Shown: in pieces, positions 7,935-64,000 of the stretch
Layout: each line of letters opens with the position of its first letter
Numbering within the stretch: position 1 is the stretch's first letter
NCBI GenBank assembly: GCA_961205875.1
Contig: OY540822.1
Coordinates: forward strand, 9,364,501-9,428,500
Direction of reading: 5' to 3'
DNA from: Sialis fuliginosa
Taxonomy: Eukaryota; Arthropoda; Insecta; Megaloptera; Sialidae
DNA length: 64,000 nucleotides
Program-made: the position numbers and the translations under genes
Notes under the pieces: generated by a model
Told to the model about the DNA's origin: nothing
Seen by the model: only the letters and a program-made list of their open reading frames with translations
Databases searched by the model: none

Positions 7935-9108
7935 ATTAATAAATATGAAAAATATTGAGATATAAATCTGTTGTGATATTTTTAATAGGTGTGTTATATA
8001 ATATACAGTAGTATTTATTATTTCTATGTCACAAAATGAATTTAAGAAGCCACAAGAAATGTACGTGCGTCATTATATCTATTAATATTTCTGTGACGAA
8101 ATAATATATTATACTAGAAATAAATTCTTTAAATGTCCTAAGCAATTTCGATTGAAAAAAGTATTTTAGTGATTTTAACTACAAATTTTATTTTTCGTAA
8201 ATAGGGGGTAATAACCCCTACATAGCGGGGCTGACAGGACTTTAATCCTATGACCATGCGCAGCGTGCAAAATTTAAAAAAGTAAACTATATACGAATTA
8301 ATATTTTTAATTGAAAGACCTAAAAAAAAGATCATTCAAAAAACCAATTTCAGTCTGGATCATGGGGGCTATTCAAGTAATACATAAGTATGTTTAGGGG
8401 TTGGGGGGGTCTCGTTTTAAAAATCAATAAAAATATGTTTACGTAAATAATTATTTTCAATTTTGGCGGTACTCGTACCTTATTAATTGATAATCAGATT
8501 TCTCTACTTTCGTAGTAAAACTGCTTTTAACCGCCTTAACAGCTGCCTATATCTATTTTAGTCTATGTCATCTAAAATAGAAATTACAATAATGTAAACG
8601 CATAACCTAATTTACTTGAAATATAAATTTCCAGTGTGCACTTTAATTTGCAACATCCCTGTTCTTTGATGAAATCATAATAATATGATTAATTATTATT
8701 AATCAATGTACAAATTATTTTGAATGAATTCTAAAAATAACCTTAAACTACATTTGTTATTTTTAAACAATAAGTTATTTGTATTTTCCATTGATAAGTT
8801 TTTTATTCTTTTTAAAAAAAACAGCGTTTGGTATTTGAAAGCACTAAAACGTAGTAGGTTAATCGAATATGTAATTGCAATTTCTGATTACGTTTATCCA
8901 TAACGCGTGCGTCTGTGGGTCTGTCTGTAATATGTATACTTGATCTGTCAACGATAGTGCAACATCAGTTGGCTTTAGATTCTGACCTCGTATATATGTA
9001 CTCACTAACGTTAGTGCATGTGTGAAATTGTGAAAACCCATACTTATTTATGAATTGTAAACAATTTTGCAATTAAATAAGTTAAGTGGTCAGGTTTTTT
9101 TCTGTTTT
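7935..9108. other. A+T-rich intergenic sequence
   Basis: No gene or repeat boundary recognised. Short minus-strand frames (8138-8335, 8859-9041) lack recognisable domains. Confidence 0.5.
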
Positions 9109-10067
9109 GTTTTTATTAAAAGTGTTTAAAAAAATTTATGAAACATAAAAATTGATGTTTATTTGAGAGCAACAGTCGAAATTGGGAATTCCCTGCTTCG
9201 TGGTGTAAATAAGTGAATTTTCGGGATTTGTTTTTATTAAACGTGTTTAAAAATTTTATGAAACATAAAAATTGATGTTTATTTGAGAGCAACAGTCGAA
9301 ATTGGGAATTCCCTGCTTCGTGGTGTAAAAAAGTGAATTCTCGGGATTTGTTTTTATTAACGTGTTTAAAAATTTTATGAAACATAAAAATTGATGTTTA
9401 TTTGAGAGCAACAGTCGAAATTGAGAATTCCCTGCTTCGTGGTGTAAATAAGTGAATTTTCGAGATTTGTTTTTATTAAACGTGTTTAAAAAAATTTATG
9501 AAACATAAAAATTGATGTTTATTTGGAAGCAACAGTCGAAATTGGGAATTCCCTGCTTCGTGGTGTAAATACGTGAATTTTCGGGATTTGTTTTTATTAA
9601 ACGTGTTTAAAAATTTTATGAAACATAAAAATTGATGTTTATTTGGAAGCAACAGTCGAAATTGGGAATTCCCTGCTTCGTGGTGTAAATAAGTGAATTC
9701 TCGGGATTTGTTTTTATTAAACGTGTTTGAAAATTTTATGAAACATAAAAATCGATGTTTATTTGAGAGCAACAGTCGAAATTGAGAATTCCCTGCTTCG
9801 TGGTGTAAATAAGTGTATTTTCGGGATTTGTTTTTATTAAACGTGTTTGAAAATTTTATGAAACATAAAAATCGATGTTTATTTGAGAGCAACAGTCGAA
9901 ATTGAGAATTCCCTGCTTCGTGGTGTAAATAAGTGTATTTTCGGGATTTGTTTTTATTAAACGTGTTTGAAAATTTTATGAAACATAAAAATTGATGTTT
10001 ATTTGGAAGCAACAGTCGAAATTGGGAATTCCCAGCTTCGTGGTGTAAAAAAGTGAATTTTCGAGAT
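9109..10067. repeat. Minisatellite, 8 units of ~120 bp
   Basis: Unit landmarks (CGTGTTTAAAA, then GAGAGCAACAGTCG, then TTCCCTGCTTCGTGGTG) recur every 119-121 bases, eight times. Because 120 is a multiple of three, the minus strand stays open for 217 codons (9476-10129) and 89 codons (9116-9385), split where the third unit is one base short. Nearly all changes are single substitutions. Probably noncoding; see findings. Confidence 0.9.
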
Positions 10068-10140
10068 TTAATAAATAAATATAAATATTTACTACTGGAA
10101 AAACGGAGAAATTGTTGTTTCTTAGTCATTTAAACTAAAT

Positions 10141-10530
10141 AATATCTGCTATGGGAGCCAAGGAACTTTCTTATACGTAATCCTGACAGTAAACAATGTA
10201 CGTGATTCTTATTTTATTAAAACATATTTCTGTCAAACTAATAAAAGATAGAATCTTTTATGTATCAAAAGAATTTTTTTGTATGTAAATAACTTAACCG
10301 AAAACGGATGTTTACTCTTGTCAATTTTTGAATTTTCGAATTATTTTTGAAATAAGATAAAAATGGTTTATATATTTTTATTTCCCCATATATTTTTTTA
10401 TAACATTTATGATTTAGTCAGAAAGATTTTTTTTAAATAATTATTTAGAATCACTCACACTGTTTACTCTCAGTATTACGTATAAGAAAGTCCCATAACA
10501 CTCATGGCAGATATTTCTTCTCTGTTATGA
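10141..10530. mobile_element. Inverted-repeat element, CTTATACGTA family copy 1
   Basis: Left arm (CTATGGGAGCCAAGGAACTT, then TCTTATACGTAATCCTGACAG) mirrors the right arm at 10458-10515 (CAGTATTACGTATAAGAAAG, then CATGGCAGATATT). Related units lie at 11.69-12.49, 42.50-42.62 and 63.15-63.77 kb. Confidence 0.6.
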
Positions 10531-10915
10531 ACCATTTGAATTATAATTTTATTTTTGTTTTAAAAAAATGAATAGAACAAAAATTATAGGTAATAATATT
10601 ATCTACCATTTTCTCTAATTCGCACTGTTTCAAAGTAATCGATCTTAGTAAACATCCGTATCCGGTTGAAAGATCGTTTTCAAAAATAGGAGGTTTTCTT
10701 CCCAGACAAAAATTTTTCACCCTTCTACGATTTGTCGTATTTGAGTTACAGCGCTTACAGACAGACAGACACACAGACATCATGGCGAATATATTCAGAA
10801 TGGATTCAGAGAAAATTAAAATGGATAATTCTATCAAAATCCGGATTTCGAAAAAATCGGTTTAACAATACTTTATGTATAATATAATATTATGTAATAT
10901 TACATGGGTATAATA
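10531..10915. repeat. Interspersed repeat with a CAGACAGACAGACA tract
   Basis: Sequence around GAGTTACAGCGCTTACAGAC, CATCATGGCGAA and GAATGGATTCAGAGAAA recurs at 12,300-12,440 and 63,595-63,720, each time downstream of a CTTATACGTA unit, so both are probably parts of one larger element family. No ORF of note. Confidence 0.6.
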
Positions 10916-10931
10916 AGTTCTAGTCTGGAAC

Positions 10932-10983
10932 TGTTAGACTCCTGATGAAGACTTTGTGAAGTCGAAATACGTGTCGAGTGACA
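10932..10983 (+). ncRNA. Hammerhead ribozyme 1 (type I)
   Basis: Core CTGATGA at 10942-10948; stem II GACTT/AAGTC (10950-10954 with 10959-10963, loop TGTG); GAAA at 10964-10967; cleavage triplet GTC ending at 10975. Stem I pairs TGTT and ACTC (10932-10935, 10938-10941) with GAGT and GACA (10976-10983), a 2-nt bulge between. Stem III is three pairs (ATA/TGT) around CG, feasible mainly in a dimer. This is the best-folded unit. Confidence 0.85.
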
Positions 10984-11069
10984 TGGTTAAGGTGTATTTT
11001 TTTAGTTATATAAATATTTTATTATTATTGCAAAAATGTAATTGATTTTTATTTTGATTTGGTCTAAAT

Positions 11070-11123
11070 TGTTAGGCTCCTGATGAGGAGTTGATGTGAA
11101 GTCGAAACACGTGTCGATTGACA
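11070..11123 (+). ncRNA. Hammerhead ribozyme 2, stem II mismatch
   Basis: Core CTGATGA 11080-11086, GAAAC 11104-11108, cleavage expected after C11115. Stem III is the self-complementary ACACGTGT. Stem I: TGTTAG with TTGACA plus TC with GA, bulge GC. Stem II reads GAGTT against AAGTC, with a G-G mismatch at its centre, so this copy may be weak or inactive. Confidence 0.75.
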
Positions 11124-11209
11124 TGGTTAAGGTGTTTATTTTTAGTTATATAAATATTTTATTATTATCGCAAAAATATTATTGATTTTTATTTTGATTT
11201 GATCAAAAT

Positions 11210-11263
11210 TGTTAAGCTTCTGATGAGGACTTGTTCTGAAGTCGAAACACGTGTCGCGTGACA
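11210..11263 (+). ncRNA. Hammerhead ribozyme 3
   Basis: Core CTGATGA 11220-11226, perfect stem II GACTT/AAGTC with loop GTTCTG, GAAAC 11244-11248, cleavage after C11255. The outer part of stem I (TGTT with GACA) is kept, but the inner part is disturbed (GCTT against GCGT), so stem I is weaker than in the others. Confidence 0.75.
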
Positions 11264-11334
11264 TTTTTAGTTATATAAATATTTTATTATTATCGCAAAA
11301 ATATAATTGATTTTTATTTTGATTTGGTCTAAAT

Positions 11335-11388
11335 TGTTAGGCTCCTGATGAGGACTTGTTGTGAAGTCGAAACACGTGTCGATTGACA
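11335..11388 (+). ncRNA. Hammerhead ribozyme 4
   Basis: Core CTGATGA 11345-11351, perfect stem II (11353-11357 with 11364-11368, loop GTTGTG), GAAAC 11369-11373, cleavage after C11380. Stem I pairs TGTTAG and TC (11335-11340, 11343-11344) with GA and TTGACA (11381-11388), bulge GC. Stem III ACACGTGT. Confidence 0.82.
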
Positions 11389-11689
11389 TGGTTAAGGTGT
11401 GTGTTTTTAGTTATATAAATATTTTATTATTATCGCAAAAATATGATTGATTTTTATTTATTTGGTTTTGGTCTAAATTGAGAATTGTTATGTGAGGTAC
11501 TTGAGGACATTGCGTGTATATGAATCATCCTATGCGTGTTTTGTATGTACCAGCTACGAATCTACGAATCTGTCGGTTTTGATTTGAACGAACGACCGAA
11601 TGGATATTATTGAACAAATTTTATATTGGAAATTAGCGCAAATATAATAATGCTTAGCTAAACCTTCCTCGTGTTTTTGATTGAAAATA

Positions 11690-12493
11690 TCTGCCTTGGG
11701 AGTCACGGGACTTTCTTATACGTAATCTTGACAGTGAACAGTGTACGTGATTCTTAAGTTATTAAAACACATTTCTGATAAACTAATAGAAGATAAAATA
11801 AAATGAATGGGACATAAACTATAGATAATATTATTCTCTACATTATAATGTATCACATGAATATTTTGAACGTTTTTACAGAAAATGGATGTTTACTCTT
11901 GGCAATTTTTGAAATAAGAAAAAATGTTTTAGATAAAAAATGTCAAGTATTTTTTAAAAATAATTATTTAGAATCAAACACACTGTTCACTCTCAGTATT
12001 ACGTATTAGAAAGTTCAATGGTACCTATGGCAAATACACACACTGTTCACACTCTGTAATACGTATAAGAAAGTCCCATGACACTGTTATGAATCATTTG
12101 AATAAAAATTAAAAAAAAAAAATTGTTTATTCGAAAAAAGGAATAGAACATAAATTATAGATAATAACATTACCTACAATTTTGAACTTGACCATTTTTC
12201 TCTAATTTGCAGTGTTTCAAAGTAATTCGAAAAATTCAAAAATCGTATCCGGTTGAAAGATCGTTTTCTTCCCAGATAAAAAATAAATCTTAAATATAAA
12301 ATTTCACCCTTCTACGATTTGTCGTATTTGAGTTACAGCGCTTACAGACAGACGTACACATAGACATCATGGCGAAAATAGTCAGAATGGATTCAGAGAA
12401 AGTCAAAATAGATAATTCCATCAAAATCCGGATTTTGATGGATACTATACTATATGTACATATATTCCATATACATGGTATAAGAAAGTAAAA
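11690..12493. mobile_element. CTTATACGTA family copy 2, longest clear copy here
   Basis: Starts near GGGACTTTCTTATACGTAAT (11707) and ends near GGTATAAGAAAGTAAAAAA (12493). It includes the internal mirrored segment (11990-12080), the cytosine-rich tail and the CAGACAGAC block shared with copies at 10.5 and 63.6 kb. No transposase ORF. Confidence 0.6.
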
Positions 12494-15396: not shown

Positions 15397-16580
15397 TCAG
15401 TGTAGCAATGCTAAAGTCATCATTTTGTTTTATATTTCATTAAAAAAAGTATTTTTGTATGTTTTGAGACATGTACAATAAACCCTCCAAATTTCATTTG
15501 ATTGCTTTTTTTATTAAAAAAAAAAATTCCTAAAAAAAGTATAATTTTCCAAAGTGACGTTTAGATGGAACCCCTTAATATAATAAACGAATCTTTCTCA
15601 TAAAGTTAATTTTTAAAGTTGCAAAATCAACGTTTCATATCAAAAAACCACTTTCAATTGGATTATTATAAATTATTTAAAAATGCACTACTAAAAACTG
15701 CGTTCGTACAAACAAACGCACCTTTGTAATGTTCGTAAAAATAATTGAATGATTGTTTATTAGTTGATTACTGCGGTATTGTCAAAAGCAATTTGTATTT
15801 GCAATATTTGATTTATTAATTGTTTTCACTGTATTTAATTTAAATTTATTATACTTTGATTATGATTATGGAATCTAGTGATAGTAAAATTCGAATAATT
15901 GAAGAAAATGATTATATTATAATAGAAGAGGAGGTAGATTTTATACCTGAAAATGAAACCGCGGAAGAACAGCAAGTTGGGTGAGACAATGAAAACTTGT
16001 AATAAAATAAATAATATTGAGTTAGAACGGTGATATTGAATTTTTTGTCATTTTGATATGAGAGCAGTGAATACATTTATATTTTTTTATTCCGTATTTT
16101 TCAATTAACTTATAAATTCGCTTTATTTTTACGATAATGATATGTATTTGATAATTTTCAAATTGTACATTATTTCGTTTTCTGTGAAATTTTGACGTTG
16201 AAAAAGCAGAATTTGAATTACTATATATTTTATGATTTACGTGTATTTTGATTTTATTATGTCTCTAATAACATCAATATAAAATGTGTTTCTACTTATG
16301 AAAAGTTTGACACATGTTATAATAATTTTTAAGTAGGTATTTCTATAAATAATTTTGTGTATTTTTTTTGTCAGTTATTTAGTTTGGCAATTTTTACAGC
16401 TCTAGTTGAATTGTAATAATGTGTGTTAGAATTTGAAGTGAATAAAACTATTCTTGTTTATTTTTAAAGTAAAGATACTAAATTGATTATTTTTATACGA
16501 GAAATGTAGGATGTAGATGTTTATTGATGTAATGTAATTTGTTGCATTTATTTAACTGATGTTTTTTATCTGTTGTGCAG
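15397..16580 (+). other. Ogt: Probable Ogt intron sequence
   Basis: A+T-rich and ending in the acceptor TGTTGTGCAG. Contains the small acidic ORF at 15862. No TPR-coding exon was found here or further upstream. Confidence 0.6.
15862..15984 (+). other. Small acidic ORF with a donor-like end, possible alternative first exon of Ogt
   Basis: ATG at 15862 (second in-frame ATG at 15868, followed by G) opens a 40-codon frame rich in Asp/Glu (IIEENDYIIIEEEVDFIPEN) closed by TGA at 15982. Immediately before that stop, CAAGTTGG|GTGAGA is a plausible donor at 15981. The exon would end in phase 2, exactly the phase needed by the Ogt acceptor at 16581, giving ...EQQVG joined to AVAAYLRAL. Phase agreement has a one-in-three chance of arising randomly. 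It could equally be the start of a decayed transposon ORF or noise. Confidence 0.3.
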
Positions 16581-18549
16581 AGCGGTAGCGGCTTACCTCC
16601 GGGCACTGAACCTTTCACCGAACAATGCTGTAGTCCATGGAAACCTAGCATGTGTGTATTACGAACAGGGCCTAATAGATCTTGCGATCGACACGTACCG
16701 TCGTGCGATCGAACTTCAGCCAAACTTTCCGGATGCCTATTGCAACTTAGCAAACGCCCTGAAAGAAAAGGGACACGTCAGCGAAGCAGAAGACTGTTAC
16801 AATACGGCCTTGCGACTATGCCCCACCCATGCAGATTCGCTCAACAACCTCGCAAACATAAAAAGAGAGCAGGGATACATCGAGGAGGCCACACGGCTTT
16901 ATCTGAAAGCTCTGGAAGTGTTTCCCGAGTTTGCTGCAGCCCACAGCAACTTGGCTTCAGTTCTGCAGCAGCAAGGGAAACTAAACGAAGCACTAATGCA
17001 TTACAAGGAGGCTATAAGAATTCAGCCAACCTTTGCAGACGCCTATTCCAACATGGGCAATACCTTGAAAGAGATGCAAGACGTCGCAGGAGCTCTGCAA
17101 TGCTACACCCGTGCTATACAAATAAACCCGGCTTTTGCAGATGCTCATAGCAATCTAGCGAGCATTCACAAAGACTCTGGGAATATTCCAGAAGCAATTC
17201 AGTCTTATCGCACAGCTCTGAAACTGAAACCTGATTTCCCTGATGCTTATTGCAATCTAGCTCACTGTCTCCAGATTGTTTGTGATTGGACTGATTACGA
17301 AGCCAGGATGAAGAAACTGGTCAGCATTGTTGCAGAACAATTGGAGAAAAACAGACTTCCTTCGGTACATCCCCACCATTCAATGTTATACCCTCTGTCG
17401 CATGAATTCAGGAAGGCTATTGCGGCAAGACATGCCAATCTGTGTTTAGAAAAAATCCATGTGCTCCACAAGCCTCCATACAAGTTCTCGCGTGAAATTA
17501 CAAGCCGACTGCGTATAGGATACGTCAGCAGCGACTTTGGAAACCATCCAACTTCCCACTTGATGCAGTCTGTGCCGGGACTGCATGAACGTGCCAATGT
17601 AGAAATATTCTGTTATGCCCTGAGCCCAGACGACGGTACGACTTTCCGTAGCAAGATTGCCCGTGAAGCAGAGCACTTCATCGATCTGTCTCAGGTACCT
17701 TGTAATGGCAAAGCTGCTGACAGAATTCACGCAGATGGAATACACATTCTGGTGAACATGAATGGGTATACAAAAGGTGCGAGAAATGAAATTTTTGCTC
17801 TACGTCCAGCGCCCGTTCAAGTGATGTGGCTGGGATACCCAGGAACCAGCGGCGCTAGCTTCATGGACTATCTGATAACTGATGCGGTGACTTCTCCCGT
17901 CGAACTGGCTGCTCAGTACAGTGAGAAACTAGCCTACATGCCGCACACCTATTTTGTAGGAGATCACAGACAGATGTTCCCACATCTCAAGGAGCGATTG
18001 ATCGTAAGCGATCGCTCACACCCAACTGCAAACGTCGCAGACAATGTGGCAGTTATAAATGCCACTGATTTGTCACCGCTTGTTGAAAGCACTGATGTCA
18101 AAGAAATTCGTGAAATCGTACAAGCGGCCAAACCTGTAGAAATTAGCCTGATTGTTGCTGAGTTACCGACTACAACTCCGATCGAAACAATGATAGCTTC
18201 AGGACAAGTTCAGACTTCAGTAAACGGTGTAGTCGTTCAGAATGGATTAGCAACAACACAGACAAACAACAAGGCTGCAACTGGGGAAGAAGTACCACAG
18301 TCTATAGTGATTACGACTCGGCAGCAGTACGGATTACCAGACGACGCCGTAGTCTACTGCAACTTCAATCAACTCTACAAGATTGATCCATTAACTCTAC
18401 ACATGTGGGTCTATATTCTGAAACACGTTCCAAACTCGGTTGTTTGGTTACTACGATTCCCAGCAGTAGGAGAAGCTAATCTTCAAGCAGCTGCTCAAGA
18501 TCTTGGCTTGCCTCCTGGTAGAATTTTATTTAGCAATGTTGCTGCCAAG
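16581..18549 (+). CDS. Ogt: Ogt internal exon: TPRs and first part of catalytic domain
   Basis: Acceptor TGTTGTGCAG ends at 16580; the first base of the exon is the third base of a codon split by the intron, so the preceding exon must end in phase 2. The frame is open for 656 complete codons. The donor AAG|GTAAGT at 18550 lies on a codon boundary. This single 1,969-bp exon holds all TPRs seen here, the linker, the N-catalytic lobe and the middle domain. An apparent in-frame start at 16573 (TTG) lies in the intron/acceptor and is not a real start. Confidence 0.96.
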
Positions 18550-20456
18550 GTAAGTAAGATTATTTGTAAATAGCTGCGACAGTATTTAACGAGTATGATT
18601 ATTTCAGGAGGAGCATGTTCGTAGAGGACAGTTAGCTGATGTGTGCTTAGACACGCCTTTGTGCAACGGACACACAACAAGTATGGATGTTCTTTGGACA
18701 GGCACACCTGTCGTAACTCTGCCAGGAGAAACCTTGGCTTCAAGAGTTGCTGCAAGTCAGTTGGCAGCGTTAGGATGTCCTGAACTCATTGCTCGCACTC
18801 GACAAGAGTATCAAGACATTGCTGTTAGACTAGGAACGGATCGTGAATAGTAAGTATATCAATATCAAAAACATATTTAAGAAATCTATTAAAAATAGGT
18901 AAAATTCAACATTCCTTATTATACATTAATATATAATTAATTTTGTGAAATTTGGTTCTGGTAATTTATTTTACTTATTTGTTCAATAAATAGAGTAATC
19001 TGGACATTTTGGACATACCTTTTTTTACTTAATTGCAAAGATTATGCTAAAAAAATAATAAAAGCATTAAACAAATTGTTTCTTTATTGTTCAATTTTAA
19101 ATTAGCACGTATATTATTATTGTACATATTGCAACTATATAGAATAACTTTTTCCTTATGTTTCCTTTTTACACAGTTATAAATCTTTTTCTAGGAGTTT
19201 TGAGAGTTTGACCAGATTACTCTATTCTTTATTATTCATTCAGTATTTTGTAAAAAAAAGGGAAAGAAGGTACTGGCACCAGTCTTGGATATGACCCTAG
19301 TAATGGCTATTTTTAAATTAAATATACTGAATTAGAAATATTTGTTGATATTTGATCACTACCATTTCTGAATATTAATCTATATACATTTAACTGTCTT
19401 ACAGCGTGATTTGATGACAATTGACCAATAGATGTCAAAATGGTGGGCATTTAAATTAATTATTAGTATGATTAATTTATTAATTATTATATTATCATAG
19501 CAACTGCTTTACATTGCATTGTTTCAAATTTGGAGATTCTATCTTTTATATCTTTTGTGTCATAGTACTTATCACTGTGTCCATCACTGTGTGCTCATTA
19601 TTGGTTTTACTTTATCCATTACTGGAGAAAAATCATAAACAAAATAAAAGGTTATAATAAAAAAAAATTATATTTGCGGACTTTTTTGTTTTATTAGTAA
19701 CATGAGTTGATGAGAATTTCAAAAAAGAAGCCCATCAATCACAAAAACAGCAAACCTTGCTCTTATAGCAGCGATAACTGCCAGTTTATGTAAAAATTCA
19801 CCTGTAAAACTGTTACATCAGGAAAATTTGTTAATAATAGTTGTAGAATTATTTTAAAGCGTTTTGAATGTTTTTAATTTTTGGAAAATAATTTGAATTT
19901 ATGTCCGGTATTATAAAGGAGCTAGCAAATTTGTTAGCTAGCAAGCACTTTCAAATGAGATATCAAATTTATATGACAGTTCTTTTGGAGTTTGTTGAAG
20001 ACTTTGACAAGTTTCGTGCATGCGTTGTAGGTAAATACCAACGGTATTAAAACAGTGGTGATATTATGAAAATTCTTTTGTATGGTGAAAGATGCCAACT
20101 GTGTTACAATTAGTTGAAGTGTCACTGCTCTAAATTCCATAGCTAATCCATAGATACTAGTACAGAATTAATACCCCATTTGAAAGTAATGCTAGCTAGC
20201 AAATTTTGCTAGCTCCCTTTATAATACCAGACATTAGTGTAAGTTTTTTTATTAGTTAGTTGATGTTGTAAATGCAATGTTTACTTTTTACAGTTTGAGG
20301 GCGATGAGGGCAAAAGTGTGGACGGCGAGAACAGATTCGCCTCTGTTTGATTGTAAACAGTATGCCCAAGGGATGGAGCTGTTATACAAAAGGATGTGGG
20401 AACGGTTTGCCCAAGGATTGAAACCGGACCATGTAGCCGCCATAAACAGTGAATAG
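16581..20456 (+). CDS. Ogt: O-GlcNAc transferase (UDP-GlcNAc:polypeptide O-GlcNAc transferase), 3' three exons, partial at 5' end
   Basis: Joined exons 16581-18549, 18608-18849 and 20294-20456 give about 790 residues in one continuous frame ending in TAG. OGT transfers GlcNAc from UDP-GlcNAc to Ser/Thr of nuclear and cytosolic proteins (sxc in Drosophila). Visible: about six 34-residue TPRs (residues 1-235, motifs such as [15 protein letters not shown]), then the GT41 catalytic region with DFGNHPTSH (the His matches His498 implicated in human OGT), [22 protein letters not shown], a variable middle domain (about 460-570), [29 protein letters not shown] (Lys matching human Lys842, its AAG being the last codon of the first exon), [10 protein letters not shown] and [14 protein letters not shown]. 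The C-terminus [11 protein letters not shown] aligns with the human end. The N-terminal start and early TPRs (about 180-250 residues) are missing; no such exon was found in 1-16580, so they lie upstream. Identification is secure. Confidence 0.97.
18608..18849 (+). CDS. Ogt: Ogt exon: UDP-binding part of C-catalytic lobe
   Basis: A 58-bp intron (18550-18607, GTAAGT...TTTCAG) precedes it. It encodes [19 protein letters not shown] onward to [16 protein letters not shown], 80 codons plus two bases (TA), ending at donor GTAAGTAT (18850). These segments match the nucleotide-binding half of the GT41 fold, including the GHTT motif. The TAG that appears at 18848-18850 is not a stop: its G belongs to the donor, and the codon becomes TAT (Tyr) after splicing. 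Confidence 0.96.
19268..19790 (-). mobile_element. MITE, AGGTA family copy 4, inside the last Ogt intron
   Basis: Starts AGGTACTGGCACCAGTCTTGG in inverted orientation. The far end is decayed (GATAACTGCCAGTTTATG where others read ATAACTGGTGCCTTTACC). No clean target duplication remains. Confidence 0.7.
19901..20234 (+). mobile_element. GCTAGCTAGC element in the last Ogt intron
   Basis: Inverted ends of about 45 bp: ATGTCCGGTATTATAAAGGA, then GCTAGCAAATTT at the left and the complement at the right (TTTATAATACCAGACAT). No ORF conserved between the copies. It ends 60 bases before the terminal exon. Confidence 0.8.
20294..20456 (+). CDS. Ogt: Ogt terminal coding exon
   Basis: Acceptor TTTTTACAG ends at 20293. 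The exon completes the split Tyr codon and encodes [19 protein letters not shown] through [20 protein letters not shown], then TAG at 20454-20456. It matches the conserved C-terminal helix of OGT. The preceding 1,444-bp intron (18850-20293) carries two MITE copies, described separately. Confidence 0.95.
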
Positions 20457-41831: not shown

Positions 41832-42818
41832 TTTTTTTTTTACTTATCCAAGTATTAAACCAATCTATAGATTCTAATAAATTGAAAATTTATCAATAAT
41901 GATGAACGGATGGCATATTAAAAAAAATATATTGTTACATTCATCAGAGTTTTTTTAAATTAGAGCGAATTGTCGCTGAAGAAGTATCGACTATCGTCTA
42001 ATTTTTATAATACGCGTGATTTTGCTAATTAACTTTTTGTATAGTGTTTACCAGGTATGTACATTGTGATTCATATTATTTATTTGATTTTTTTGTTTCG
42101 GTTCTGATATTTATGTAATGGTTTTTATTTGTTAACGTATGTTTACATCATGCACTTGTCGAAAGAGCAATAAAACTAAGTTTTGTTAACGAATGTACAT
42201 ATCCTCATTGTTTATAGTTAATAATAATTATATAATTTATAAAAATATAATTTTAATAATAAAAAAAAGGTAATATTATTCTCTCCATTATATAACAAGT
42301 GATTTTTTTTAACGTAATAACTGAAATCAGATGTTTACTCTTGTAAATTTTTGAATTAACGAATTATTTTTGAATTAAGAAAAAATGTTTTAGATAAAAA
42401 ATGTCGAGTATGTTATTATCTATAATTTATTCCCTATACATTTTTTTCCAACATTTATAATTTAGCCAGAAAGAAATTTTTTATGTAATTATTTAGATTC
42501 ACCTACACTGTTCACTATCAGTATTACGTATAAGAAAGTCCCATGGTACCTATGGCAAACAAGCACACTGTTTAATCTCTGTACTACGTATAAGAAAGTC
42601 CCATGACACTCATGGCAGATATTTCTCCTCTGTTATGAACCATTTGAATTATAATAAAATTGCATGACGTTAACATATGTTTACAAAGTCAAAAAAATGA
42701 AATAAACTTTTATTTTCAAAAAAAGATTTTTTTTACTATTTTTCCCTTAAATCTAGCCTACTTCTGCTTCAAAAAATTAATATTTCGTTAAAATAAAAAA
42801 AAATCATGCAATTAAGGG
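41832..42818. other. Spacer between hAT copy A and the satellite
   Basis: Includes a CTTATACGTA-family piece (about 42,270-42,660: CAGATGTTTACTCTTG, AGTATTACGTATAAGAAAG). ATTGCATGACGTTAACAT at about 42,658 resembles ATTGCATCTTGTTAACAT at 45,592, just beyond the satellite. Confidence 0.55.
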
Positions 42819-45584
42819 TTAAAGATAATAGTGTAAGCTACATTTAAAAAAAAAACTGGAGTCTCCTCGATCGCGCCAAGTTGAGATATTAACTATTCAA
42901 TTTACTTCTTTGTTAGCGTATGAGTTTTAATTTGTTTTTTTAGTTTTAACTTGTTTTAAAAAAGGGAAGGAGCACGCGAAGGTCTTTAAGTGCGTGATGC
43001 TCTTAAAGATAATAGTGTAAGCTACATTTAAAAAAAAAACTGGAGTCTCTTCGATCGCGCCAAGCTGAGATATTAACTATTCAATTTACTTCTTTGTTAG
43101 CGTATGAGTTTTAATTTGTTTTTTTAGTTTTAACTTGTTTTAAAAAAGGGAAGGAGCACGCGAAGGTCTTTAAGTGCGTGATGCTCTTAAAGATAATAGT
43201 GTAAGCTACATTTTAAAAAAAAAACTGGAGTCTCTTCGATCGCGCCAAGCTGAGATATTAACTATTCAATTTACTTCTTTGTTAGCGTATGAGTTTTAAT
43301 TTGTTTTTTTAGTTTTAACTTGTTTTTAAAAAGGGAAGGAGCACGCGAAGGTCTTTAAGTGCGTGATGCTCTTAAAGATAATAGTGTAAGCTACATTTTA
43401 AAAAAAAACTGGAGTCTCTTCGATCGCTCCAAGCTGAGATATTAACTATTCAATTTACTTCTTTGTTAGCGTATGAGTTTTAATTTGTTTTTTTAGTTTT
43501 AACTTGTTTTTAAAAAGGGAAGGAGCACGCGAAGGTCTTTAAGTGCGTGATGCTCTTAAAGATAATAGTGTAAGCTACATTTTAAAAAAAAACTGGAGTC
43601 TCTTCGATCGCGCCAAGCTGAGATATTAACTATTCAATTTACTTCTTTGTTAGCGTATGAGTTTTAATTTGTTTTTTTAGTTTTAACTTGTTTTTAAAAA
43701 GGGAAGGAGCACGCGAAGGTCTTTAAGTGCGTGATGCTCTTAAAGATAATAGTGTAAGCTACATTTTAAAAAAAAACTGGAGTCTCTTCGATCGCGCCAA
43801 GCTGAGATATTAACTATTCAATTTACTTCTTTGTTAGCGTATGAGTTTTAATTTGTTTTTTTTAGTTTTAACTTGTTTTTAAAAAGGGAAGGAGCACGCG
43901 AAGGTCTTTAAGTGCGTGATGCTCTTAAAGATAATAGTGTAAGCTACATTTAAAAAAAAAACTGGAGTCTCTTCGATCGCGCCAAGCTGAGATATTAACT
44001 ATTCAATTTACTTCTTTGTTAGCGTATGAGTTTTAATTTGTTTTTTTAGTTTTAACTTGTTTTTAAAAAGGGAAGGAGCACGCGAAGGTCTTTAAGTGCG
44101 TGATGCTCTTAAAGATAATAGTGTAAGCTACATTTTAAAAAAAAACTGGAGTCTCTTCGATCGCGCCAAGCTGAGATATTAACTATTCAATTTACTTCTT
44201 TGTTAGCGTATGAGTTTTAATTTGTTTTTTTAGTTTTAACTTGTTTTTAAAAAGGGAAGGAGCACGCGAAGGTCTTTAAGTGCGTGATGCTCTTAAAGAT
44301 AATAGTGTAAGCTACATTTAAAAAAAACTGGAGTCTCTTCGATCGCGCTAAGCTGAGATATTAACTATTCAATTTACTTCTTTGTTAGCGTATGAGTTTT
44401 AATTTGTTTTTTTAGTTTTAACTTGTTTTTAAAAAGGGAAGGAGCACGCGAAGGTCTTTAAGTGCGTGATGCTCTTAAAGATAATAGTGTAAGCTACATT
44501 TTAAAAAAAAACTGGAGTCTCCTCGATCGCACCAAGCTGAGATATTAACTATTCAATTTACTTCTTTGTTAGCGTATGAGTTTTAATTTGTTTTTTTAGT
44601 TTTAACTTGTTTTTAAAAAGGGAAGGAGCACGCGAAGGTCTTTAAGTGCGTGATGCTCTTAAAGATAATAGTGTAAGCTACATTTAAAAAAAAAACTGGA
44701 GTCTCTTCGATCGCGCCAAGCTGAGATATTAACTATTCAATTTACTTCTTTGTTAGCGTATGAGTTTTAATTTGTTTTTTTAGTTTTAACTTGTTTTTAA
44801 AAAGGGAAGGAGCACGCGAAGGTCTTTAAGTGCGTGATGCTCTTAAAGATAATAGTGTAAGCTACATTTAAAAAAAAAACTGGAGTCTCTTCGATCGCGC
44901 CAAGCTGAGATATTAACTATTCAATTTACTTCTTTGTTAGCGTATGAGTTTTAATTTGTTTTTTTAGTTTTAACTTGTTTTTAAAAAGGGAAGGAGCACG
45001 CGAAGGTCTTTAAGTGCGTGATGCTCTTAAAGATAATAGTGTAAGCTACATTTAAAAAAAAAAGTGGAGTCTCTTCGATCGCGCCAAGCTGAGATATTAA
45101 CTATTCAATTTACTTCTTTGTTAGCGTATGAGTTTTAATTTGTTTTTTTAGTTTTAACTTGTTTTTAAAAAGGGAAGGAGCACGCGAAGGTCTTTAAGTG
45201 CGTGATGCTCTTAAAGATAATAGTGTAAGCTACATTTTAAAAAAAAACTGGAGTATCTTCGATCGCGCCAAGCTGAGATATTAACTATTCAATTTACTTC
45301 TTTGTTAGCGTATGAGTTTTAATTTGTTTTTTTTTAGTTTTAACTTGTTTTTAAAAAGGGAAGGAGCACGCGAAGGTCTTTAAGTGCATGATGCTCTTAA
45401 AGATAATAGTGTAAGCTACATTTTAAAAAAAAACTGGAGTCTCCTCGATCGCACCAAGCTGAGATATTAACTATTCAATTTACTTCTTTGTTAGCGTATG
45501 AGTTTTAATTTGTTTTTTTAGTTTTAACTTGTTTTTAAAAAGGGAAGTAGCACGCGAAGGTCTTTAAGTGCGTGATGCTCTTAA
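42819..45584. repeat. Satellite array, 15 units of ~184 bp
   Basis: Units begin TTAAAGATAATAGTGTAAGC and end AAGTGCGTGATGCTC before the next TTAA. The copies differ mainly in A/T run lengths and a few substitutions, indicating recent amplification or homogenisation. The array is bounded by TTAA on each side and by a 17-bp inverted repeat: ATGCAATTAAGGGTTAA at 42806-42822 and its complement at 45581-45597. Each unit can form a hairpin around GAGCACGCG...GCGTGATGCTC. Confidence 0.93.
43053..43084. repeat. Conserved box of the satellite (one example)
   Basis: GATCGCGCCAAGCTGAGATA and the next 12 bases are kept almost unchanged in the diverged inverted copies at 46.6-47.1 kb, while the rest of the unit has changed much more. 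It may be a protein-binding site. Confidence 0.5.
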
Positions 45585-55554: not shown

Positions 55555-56570
55555 GGCGAAATGGTTTTATTTATGTATTTTCCCTTTCGTTTTTGGAATT
55601 TATTTTTTCAAAATAAAGTTATTGAGAATTAATGAAAAGTAATGGTTATAACGAGGAAATTTTGTCGGGCGTTTGGTGCTCGTTATAACTAAGTACAACC
55701 CGGAAGAGTAAATACAATTCTTTTATCGTTATAAAAGCCAGATTATAATGCCGCTCGAAATGACCTCATTTATATATTTTTCCCTTTCGTTTTTGGAATT
55801 TATTTTTTAAATCAAGTTATTGAGAATTAAAGATAAGTATTGGTTATTTATAACGAGGAAATTTTGTCGGGCGTTAAGTGCTCGTTATAACCAAACACAA
55901 CCCGGAAGAGTAAATACAATTCTTTTATCGTTATAAAAGCCATATTAGAATATCGCTCAAAATGACCTCATTTATGTATTTTTCCCTTTCATTTTGGAAT
56001 TTATTTTTTAAATCAAGTTATTGAGAATTAAAGATAAGTATTGGTTATTTATAACGAGGAAATTTTGTCGGGCGTTTGGTACTCGTTATAACCAAGCAGA
56101 ACCCGGAAGAGTAAATACAATTCTTTTATCGTTATAAAAGCCAGATTATAATGCCGCTCGAAATGACCTCATTTATGTATTTTTCCCTTTCGTTTTTGGA
56201 ATTTATTTTTTAAATCAAGTTATTGAGAATTAAAGATAAGTATTGGTTATTTATAACGAGGAAATTTTGTCGGGCGTTTGGTACTCGTTATAACCAAGCA
56301 GAACCCGGAAGAGTAAATACAATTCTTTTATCGTTATAAAAGCCAGATTATAATGCCGCTCGAAATGACCTCATTTATGTATTTTTCCCTTTCGTTTTTA
56401 GAATTTATTTTTTAAATCAAGTTATTGAGAATTAAAGATAAGTATTGGTTATTTATAACGAGGAAATTTTGTCGGGCGTTAAGTGCTCGTTATAACCAAA
56501 CACAACCCGGAAGAGTAAATACAATTCTTTTATCGTCATAAAAGCCATATTAGAATGCCGCTCACACATA
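55555..56570. repeat. Tandem array, about 5 units of ~202 bp
   Basis: ACGAGGAAATTTTGTCGGGC recurs at about 55,651, 55,853, 56,053, 56,256 and 56,458. Each unit pairs TTATAACGAG with CTCGTTATAA some 24 bases later, a hairpin, and includes ACCCGGAAGAGTAAATACAA and CCCTTTCGTTTTTGG. The short 59,461 sequence CGAACTTCGTTATAACG is reminiscent. Confidence 0.88.
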
Positions 56571-62305: not shown

Positions 62306-63150
62306 AAAAAGTAATAACATTTTTTTTGTAATAGTTTATTGTTTTCAAATATTCATTTGTTATTATGATTGAAGTTATTGTGATTTTTGTTTAACAATTT
62401 TTGTTTTACATGGCCTACTTAAATGTTTGTAATAAAATACTTTATAAATATCACTTATTTCGAAAAATATATATGACAGGTGACATATTCTTATAAAGTA
62501 GAGTAAAAAACACGTTCAAATATGCTAAAATTAGTGACCCATAAGAAAAACTAAAATTCGGGCTTGTAACTCAATTCCACACAAAAAGTGCTTTAAGAAA
62601 CTGCAAATAAAAAGTACCTATCTACTTTGACAAAAAAAGTTATAGCCATTTAAATAATTTTCATATTTTAGGGTATACCGCCTAAACCACAGACAATTAT
62701 TAATATTTTTTGATGTAATAATACTTACCCCTTCCTTACAAATAATTCATCTAATTTAATCGAATCTGTATTTCTTACCGTTTATATAGGAAATCCCCAT
62801 GCATTTTACGCTTATCTTGGACACCCTGTATAATAGTAAAAGAGAATGACCATTAAGTGGTAAATAGCAAATAATCTAATACTAAATGTGTTAAATAAAA
62901 ATGATGCGAGTGTTATTTCTGTACGTTTTCAAATAAACACTCAATTTGGTGGAAACATTTGGTAACATATGTTCCAGAATGGAACGAGATCTATTTCAAC
63001 ACATTGCAATCGAGTTCTTTGTTTTAGTAATGTATTTTCGGCAAAGCAAGAGTGTATATTTATTTTACTTGTATTTATTTCCGTTTTTAACGTGCTAATA
63101 TATTAACTAAATAATTAGTTTTGAAGACGTATAAGTAAAAATTATCTGCC
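62306..63150. other. A+T-rich sequence
   Basis: Nothing recognised. Confidence 0.5.
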
Positions 63151-63765
63151 TTGAGACCCACGGGACTTTCTTATACGTAATCTTGACAGTGATAAAATAA
63201 AATGAATGGGACATAAACTATAGATAATATTATTCTCTACATAATGTTTTTGAACGGTTTTATAGAAAGCGGATGTTTACTTTTATCAATTTTTGAATTT
63301 TCGGATTATTTTTGAAATAAGAAAAAAATGTCGAATATGTTATTATCTATAATTTATTCCTCATAAATTTTTTTCCAACATTTATGATTTAACCAGAAAT
63401 ATTTTTTTTTAATAATTATTTAGATTCACCTACACTGTTCACTCTCAGTATTACGTATAAGAAAGTCCAATGGTACCTATGGCAAACACGCACACTGTTC
63501 AATCTGTTATGAACCATTTGAATTATAATAAAAAAATTCGAAAAATTCAAAATCGACGTAGGTAAACATCCATAAATATAAAATTTCACTATTCTACAGC
63601 GCTTACAGACAGACAGACCGACACAAATACATCATGGCGAAAATAGTCAGAATGGATTCAGGGAAGGTCAAAATAGATAATAATTCCATAAAAATCCGGA
63701 TATCGAAAAAAATCGGCTTCACTATACTTACTTATATTATTGTATATTTCATAAGAAAGTAAAAA
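63151..63765. mobile_element. CTTATACGTA family, copy near the right edge
   Basis: GGGACTTTCTTATACGTAAT at 63,160 and TTCATAAGAAAGTAAAAAAAC at the right end, with the shared internal ACGTATAAGAAAGTCC, CAGACAGACAGACCG and CATCATGGCGAA blocks. Confidence 0.65.
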
Positions 63766-64000
63766 AACTATGGTACTTTCTAAGCTATGTCATTTTCGAA
63801 TTAAGTAAAAATAGGTACACAAAATATCGCAATTTTTTTTTGTCCAGGTGTAAAAATCGCATTGTATTAAATAATACATACAGTAATAAATGTGGCATTT
63901 GAATATGATAATTGATTATATAAAACTGAAGTGCGTAGAGTTTTAATAAGTGTTTTTACTATTGTTAAAATATAATTTTGTATGCATATAAGTTAATTGC
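63766..64000. other. A+T-rich sequence to the window edge
   Basis: Nothing recognised. Confidence 0.5.

Follow-up and report, generated by a model that had tools for sequence, protein, structure and literature searches.

A decaying minisatellite from the hammerhead-bearing end of a Penelope-like element in Sialis fuliginosa

Four tandem repeats of ~140 bp, each with a hammerhead core, lie at positions 10922-11480 of a 64,000-nt stretch of the Sialis fuliginosa genome (hereafter the window; G000:C14:9364501-9428500 of a 392-Mb, 20-contig assembly), and they raise the question of whether such an array is a mobile element in its own right or the product of another one. A first-pass annotation had described a retrozyme-like locus of type I hammerhead motifs with a palindromic helix III suited to a dimer, of a kind known from Penelope-like elements (PLEs); the motif type and its affinity have stood, the retrozyme label has not. 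Minimal type I hammerheads of PLEs are said to have been described by Cervera and de la Pena in 2014 and by Lunse, Weinberg and Breaker in 2017. The available text of three papers places such hammerheads in the pseudo-LTRs of PLEs, with possible cleavage as dimers, and reports thousands of them, mostly dispersed, in many metazoan genomes (PMC7761336, PMC6155905, PMC6466107). For a hammerhead of Aedes aegypti, PMC3088659 draws loop III as a palindrome and sketches a dimer as a hypothesis. No paper on this array locus was found in the open-licence literature by queries that were not species-specific.

Layout and pairing of the four units

Tandem Repeats Finder delimited the array at 10932-11466 (period 140, 4.0 copies, 84% matches). 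The core (CUGANGA, GAAA and a UH cleavage site) is complete in all four units, which read CTGATGA, GAAA and GTC as first annotated; the annotated cuts (positions below) and their spacings of 140, 140 and 125 were correct, the third unit being 15 bp shorter. The features of the array and its immediate surroundings are as follows.

10141-10851, + strand: interspersed repeat left of the array and outside it, 69% identical to the right-hand copy
10922-11480, + strand: whole tandem array, a PLE 3'-end fragment plus local flank, in units of 140, 140, 125 and ~144 bp
10932-10983, + strand: hammerhead motif of unit 1, predicted cut after 10975, 15 of 15 modelled pairs possible
10999-11071, + strand: spacer 1, first ~9 bp PLE-like (TTTTTAGTT), remainder local flank; 97% identical to spacer 3
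11070-11123, + strand: hammerhead motif of unit 2, predicted cut after 11115, 3 of 16 modelled pairs lost
11139-11211, + strand: spacer 2, 96% identical to spacer 3
11210-11263, + strand: hammerhead motif of unit 3, predicted cut after 11255, 2 of 16 modelled pairs lost
11264-11336, + strand: spacer 3, the query of the whole-genome spacer search
11335-11388, + strand: hammerhead motif of unit 4, predicted cut after 11380, 2 of 16 modelled pairs lost
11404-11480, + strand: spacer 4, 91% identical to spacer 3, ending in GGTCTAAATTG/AGAATTG
11686-12438, + strand: second copy of the interspersed repeat, right of the array and outside it

The 73-bp spacer is composed of ~9 bp of PLE-like end and ~64 bp of flank. 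The interspersed repeat, which has internal inverted similarity, occurs in the window at 42259-42655 and 63133-63766 as well, and two of its copies lie within ~170 bp of the 120-bp and 184-bp arrays among the other tandem arrays present (9106-10069, 120 bp x 8; 42819-45584, 184 bp x 15; 55569-56563, 202 bp x 4.9). A pattern scan of these three arrays found no CTGAKGA..GAAA core. The window also holds a long open frame of 681 codons at 16528-18573 (+), which we take to resemble the TPR part of O-GlcNAc transferase.

Pairing effects of the changes in each unit were judged by hand on a modelled structure with a 2-nt bulge in helix I and a helix III formed by the palindrome only. The stem I partners TGTT and GACA were found in all four units and a perfect GACTT/AAGTC stem II in units 1, 3 and 4 (unit 2 reads GAGTT), both in agreement with the first-pass annotation. 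Its impression of compensatory differences did not survive: 13 distinct changes separate the units from the dispersed copy L009 (one 2-nt gap being counted as two), and no paired double change is among them. All modelled pairs were kept in unit 1 only, which has a 2-nt deletion in helix II and its loop relative to the dispersed copies; unit 2 lost two pairs in helix II and one in helix I, and no covariation was seen within the array. In every unit, moreover, A9 of CUGAUGA is separated from helix II by a single additional purine (A in unit 1), which had gone unmentioned. An extra core nucleotide between A9 and helix II was reportedly described by De la Pena and Flores in 2001 for the hammerhead of Chrysanthemum chlorotic mottle viroid, which shares this single feature and differs in being a viroid of unrelated sequence. 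Insertions of 1-2 nucleotides next to CUGAnGA fall within known variation in the available text of PMC10085705.

All 13 changes fall outside the 14 core sites of the 55 (chance ~0.02 by hand arithmetic, an estimate biased by the motif having been noticed for its intact core), and some constraint may have acted on the hammerhead core of the array. When each unit was folded as a homodimer, as opposed to a mixed dimer of neighboring units, the double hammerhead lay 4.5 kcal/mol above the dimer optimum for unit 1 and 26.0, 17.8 and 12.4 kcal/mol above it for units 2, 3 and 4, respectively. Units 2 to 4 are probably decayed ribozymes by these models, whereas unit 1 could still fold, and cutting within the array would be residual at best. 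The release and circularization of 140- and 125-nt RNAs, as first proposed, is unlikely for units 2 to 4.

The Penelope-like source of the units and their spread

Searched against its own genome, the array gave 50 matches (40 of 1,491 candidates were scored), the best non-self match reaching 118 bits. Nearly all dispersed matches span the ribozyme part alone (mostly query 1-115 or 382-497), with up to 90% identity over 86-92 bp; one exception is a two-unit repeat at C2:3068281 (L012), aligned at 72% over query 3-249, i.e., through the spacer. L012 consists of two head-to-tail copies 153 bp apart (cores at minus-strand 5119 and 4966) with a mutated cleavage-site region and another spacer. The 20 best-scoring places were fetched, and 24 motif copies were read in them. 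Genome-wide, a core-plus-helix-II pattern gave 759 matches (367 forward and 392 reverse; the first places listed are all on C1), against none for a reversed control pattern.

The first-pass annotation had proposed a search for further copies and a partner retroelement; the motif follows PLE reading frames at two loci (L021 and L031). At L021, a frame with a GIY-YIG domain (PF01541; E 2e-4, 22.1 bits, slightly below the cut-off of 22.6) ends ~55 nt upstream of the hammerhead core of this PLE family (family 1); at L031, an open frame of 854 aa with a reverse transcriptase (RT) domain (RVT_1; E 6e-15) reaches its stop ~50 nt before the core. GIY-YIG was not matched in the L031 frame at E 0.1, and the GIY-YIG region is common to the L031 and L021 frames. 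RT and a C-terminal GIY-YIG were found for family 1 across L031, L021 and their relatives: many protein relatives carry both domains, and one of those named, from Chrysoperla carnea, shares 46% identity with the query across 76% of its length. As a PLE finder, PF01541 returned two places, and the L021 frame as query returned 152 relatives. Three of the GIY-YIG matches listed are followed closely downstream by a hammerhead place from the array search (C1:1074304, which is L021, C13:6180380 and C3:629548); the comparison covers those of the 152 relatives that were listed and the 40 scored motif candidates. All four stretches fetched downstream of family 1 GIY-YIG matches (L048-L051) contained the motif. 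Because it follows PLE reading frames, the motif is the 3'-end (pseudo-LTR) hammerhead of a Penelope-like element; since nucleotide comparison found no family 1 coding sequence in the window, the PLE identity of the units rests on the dispersed copies.

Insertion structure was also that of a PLE: the hammerhead lies at the pseudo-LTR, partial copies occur in inverted or tandem arrangement (the tandem junction coming from a second family, below), and target-site duplications vary in length. A simple pattern, which misses copies visible by eye such as L012, detected an inverted truncated partner upstream of the motif at 13 of 24 places and a terminal tail at nine of 24. The whole element at L031 is flanked by two copies of a 13-bp sequence, and the L011 copy by a 15-nt repeat. 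L031 carries a single hammerhead; a dimer there therefore needs a tandem neighbor or a second molecule. A DNA transposon or MITE had been suggested by the many head-to-head palindromic copies and was dropped on the PLE frames and the 13-bp and 15-nt flanking repeats. Poseidon PAc of Anolis carolinensis, as far as the available text of PMC11167929 describes it, is alike in being a PLE with RT and GIY-YIG, in bearing its hammerhead near the junction of pseudo-LTR and ORF and in the "tail" signature at insertion ends. It differs in that its ORF starts at ribozyme stem II, whereas in family 2 here the next ATG lies 121 nt downstream of the core. According to the same text, cleavage by the PAc hammerhead required the PLE protein, and insertion in vitro went ahead without ribozyme activity (PMC11167929).

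At G000:C10:3223636-3253527, five fragments of the PLE recur every ~7.37 kb, apparently carried along by a large tandem duplication. Outside this genome, no PLE relatives were confirmed in viral_contigs. A PLE-like frame was seen on a 3.4-kb contig of a Campylobacteraceae MAG (L053; JABSON010000276.1), most likely as eukaryotic contamination; its printed stretch contains one CTGANGA, inside the frame and without a following GAAA.

How the units multiplied can be judged from the spacer. Compared with the 392-Mb genome, the 73-bp spacer 3 gave four matches, all in this array, in a search that skips very common words, so that its confinement to the array is not absolute; C2:3068281 was not returned by this spacer-only search, despite its alignment through the spacer in the array search. 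The confinement of the spacer means that the array most likely grew in place, as L052 (G000:C1:39235800-39237400) clearly did. L052 consists of four 176-bp units that are nearly identical and whose cores and helix II are intact, but the flank it captured is a different one; its spacer is the genomic sequence left of the first motif, and its units join at TTAA, away from the ribozyme cut. In the window, spacer 4 ends in unduplicated right flank that resembles the AGTCTGGAACTG of the PLE at the unit joins; there, GGTCTAAATTG/AGAATTG of the right flank abuts AGTCTGGAACTG/TTAGG of the element. Because flank meets element at these joins, units 2 to 4 have AATTG where unit 1 and most dispersed copies have AACTG.

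It is very probable, in our judgement, that the array is a small, decaying local duplication of the hammerhead-bearing 3' end of a PLE together with its flank, and not a mobile element itself. A 5'-truncated Penelope-like retrotransposon would have inserted here long ago, of which the last ~85-90 bp, including the minimal type I hammerhead, would have been left. Most of this fragment and ~64 bp of the adjoining right flank would then have been tandemly duplicated in place to give four units, probably via unequal exchange or slippage between the similar GGTCTAAATTG of the flank and AGTCTGGAACTG of the element (a mechanism read from the junction sequences alone), and the copies would have decayed after duplication. 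Local tandem duplication at the DNA level would explain both this array and L052.

Very unlikely by comparison is the reading in which the 140-bp unit is a non-LTR retrozyme of the metazoan type, spread by circular RNA that its hammerheads excise and PLE reverse transcriptase copies. Tandem units, type I cores and a dimer-type helix III all suit it, as does a PLE family with hundreds of copies in the genome; two papers describe metazoan retrozymes as tandemly arranged units, ~150-450 bp long and bearing type I hammerheads, for which PLEs are proposed as helpers (PMC7229834, PMC7761336). The units resemble the metazoan retrozymes described in the available part of PMC7229834 in being low-GC tandem repeats with one type I hammerhead each, but they measure 140/125 nt as opposed to ~170-400 nt, their ribozymes are decayed and they derive from a PLE end and local flank. 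The dispersed unit copies that a retrozyme requires did not come up in the spacer search, which skips very common words: the spacer was found in this array only and the array unit nowhere else. Head-to-tail pairs of the family 1 motif were also rare: exact patterns, which miss degenerate units (in this array units 1-2 and 2-3, elsewhere the L012 dimer), detected one pair separated by 80-110 nt (units 3-4 of this array) and five separated by 111-141 nt at two loci on C1; the spacers of the two C1 loci differ from that of this array and from each other in the first letters, as far as they were printed. The origin of the L052 spacer in left-flank DNA, with joins away from the ribozyme cut, speaks against a retrozyme as well. 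A third head-to-tail set appeared in the pattern listing at G000:C1:37054465-37054765, as two adjacent pairs ~150 bp apart with another spacer.

The hammerhead reading across Penelope-like families

It is also conceivable that the motif is no ribozyme at all, a chance likeness to the hammerhead kept because the copies are recent, and this we regard as highly improbable. The failure of Rfam model RF00163 to reach its gathering score in the window would fit such a chance likeness, as would the family 1 copies, which are too alike to show covariation. The first-pass annotation had named such a covariance search as one of its tests of the motif, and the model indeed gave no match in the window at the gathering score of 34 (best 14.7 bits, units 2 and 4). 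This outcome is not decisive because the same model also fails at four other PLE hammerhead loci (L021, L030, L034 and L052; none at the gathering score, best 17.7 bits), and a whole-genome search with it, in which 73 of 31,351 candidates were scored, gave no match but none in 14 control genomes either. Scores of 14.7-17.7 bits are likely so low because helix II is preceded by an extra nucleotide and helix III has no loop. A three-stem descriptor, composed after the motif was seen and tolerating at most one additional nucleotide ahead of helix II, matched one place in the window (unit 1; units 2 to 4 fail) against one in 7.68 Mb of Markov-shuffled sequence.

PLE family 2 is 51-59% identical to family 1 in the GIY-YIG region and carries the motif at the same element position. 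The exact core CTGANGA was readable in 12 of 16 fetched stretches (L032-L047) and is mutated in L040, L041, L044 and L046. Core and palindrome (ACACGTGT) are identical between the families, and by hand count three of the six helix II pairs and all three core-proximal helix I pairs differ on both sides yet still pair. Helices I and II of the motif are thus held by covariation between families 1 and 2, whereas helix III is invariant between them and therefore gives no covariation evidence. A single example of a third PLE (L030) has CUGAAGA, its own 3-bp helix II, GAAA and GUA ~590 nt downstream of where its GIY-YIG frame ends; its core was located at position 2296 of the reverse strand, beyond both the RT and the GIY-YIG frames. 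Helix II does not follow A9 directly in any of these families, the extra nucleotide being R in all 20 rows of the family 1 alignment, U in family 2 and A in one family 3 copy. Chance likeness was rejected on the cross-family comparison and the shuffles, and as a reading of sequence the putative hammerhead in the array holds.

A covariance model of our own, built on six family 2 PLE copies, ranked units 1, 4 and 2 as its top three places in the window (E 0.085, 0.11 and 0.45), missed unit 3 and gave its next places, beyond the array, E values of 1.5 and 2.2; its window matches are individually not significant. On 23 other loci the model returned 35 matches to E 10, the best being a family 1 copy (E 4.4e-4) and some of the weaker ones not belonging to family 1.

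When a family 2 copy was paired with itself in RNAcofold without constraint, the predicted fold was the exact double hammerhead (-26.3 kcal/mol), and none of 500 core-keeping shuffles of this copy did so. For two family 1 copies, the double hammerhead with all 36 pairs was found at -31.5 kcal/mol against optima of -34.4 and -33.7; it is not their best fold, lying 2.2-2.9 kcal/mol above the dimer optimum, and this counts against it. A family 2 tandem pair (L034) places a hammerhead between one frame and the next (ORF-hammerhead-ORF), a junction seen in family 2 only. The PLE hammerhead most likely cuts PLE transcripts as a dimer, via the shared palindromic helix III (ACACGUGU). By the available text of the published accounts of minimal type I PLE hammerheads, these share the location at the PLE end or pseudo-LTR, the type I order and the canonical core (PMC7761336, PMC6155905, PMC6466107, PMC11167929), as well as a helix III that is palindromic or very short, a large number of dispersed copies and a proposed dimer action. 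The present motif differs from them in that helix III is an 8-nt palindrome rather than lacking and, compared by description only, in the extra nucleotide between A9 and helix II of all three PLE families.

That small hammerheads of non-PLE origin make up the array, as in the cave-cricket satellite pDo500, with a PLE likeness by chance, is hardly credible: the tandem arrangement with a hammerhead core and the hammerheads of Dolichopoda satellites (available text of PMC2837043) would allow it, but dispersed copies share up to 90% identity over 86-92 bp with the units, some of them directly after PLE frames, and the PLE junctions in L021 and L031 refute it unless they are assembly errors.

Penelope-like ends as seeds of small satellites

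The array is a decaying minisatellite from the hammerhead end of a PLE, and dimer-acting PLE hammerheads have already been published; what first seemed a new ribozyme locus follows from one that was already known. Whether arrays of solo PLE ends are retrozymes in the making, with this one an aged and mostly dead example, is doubtful. If true, the tandem duplication of a PLE end with neighboring DNA would place hammerheads so that they can cut as dimers, a transcript running through the array would be cleaved into RNAs of unit length with private captured host sequence, and the arrays would be snapshots of the birth of retrozymes. At least three such arrays, with different spacers as far as seen, exist in the genome (C14, described here, C1:39236276 and C1:37054465), and the younger C1 array L052 is a better test object for circular RNAs than that of the window. 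Judging by the scores obtained here, PLE hammerheads of this sort seem to escape the standard type I model of Rfam. PLE ends scatter hammerheads across this insect genome and occasionally seed small satellites.
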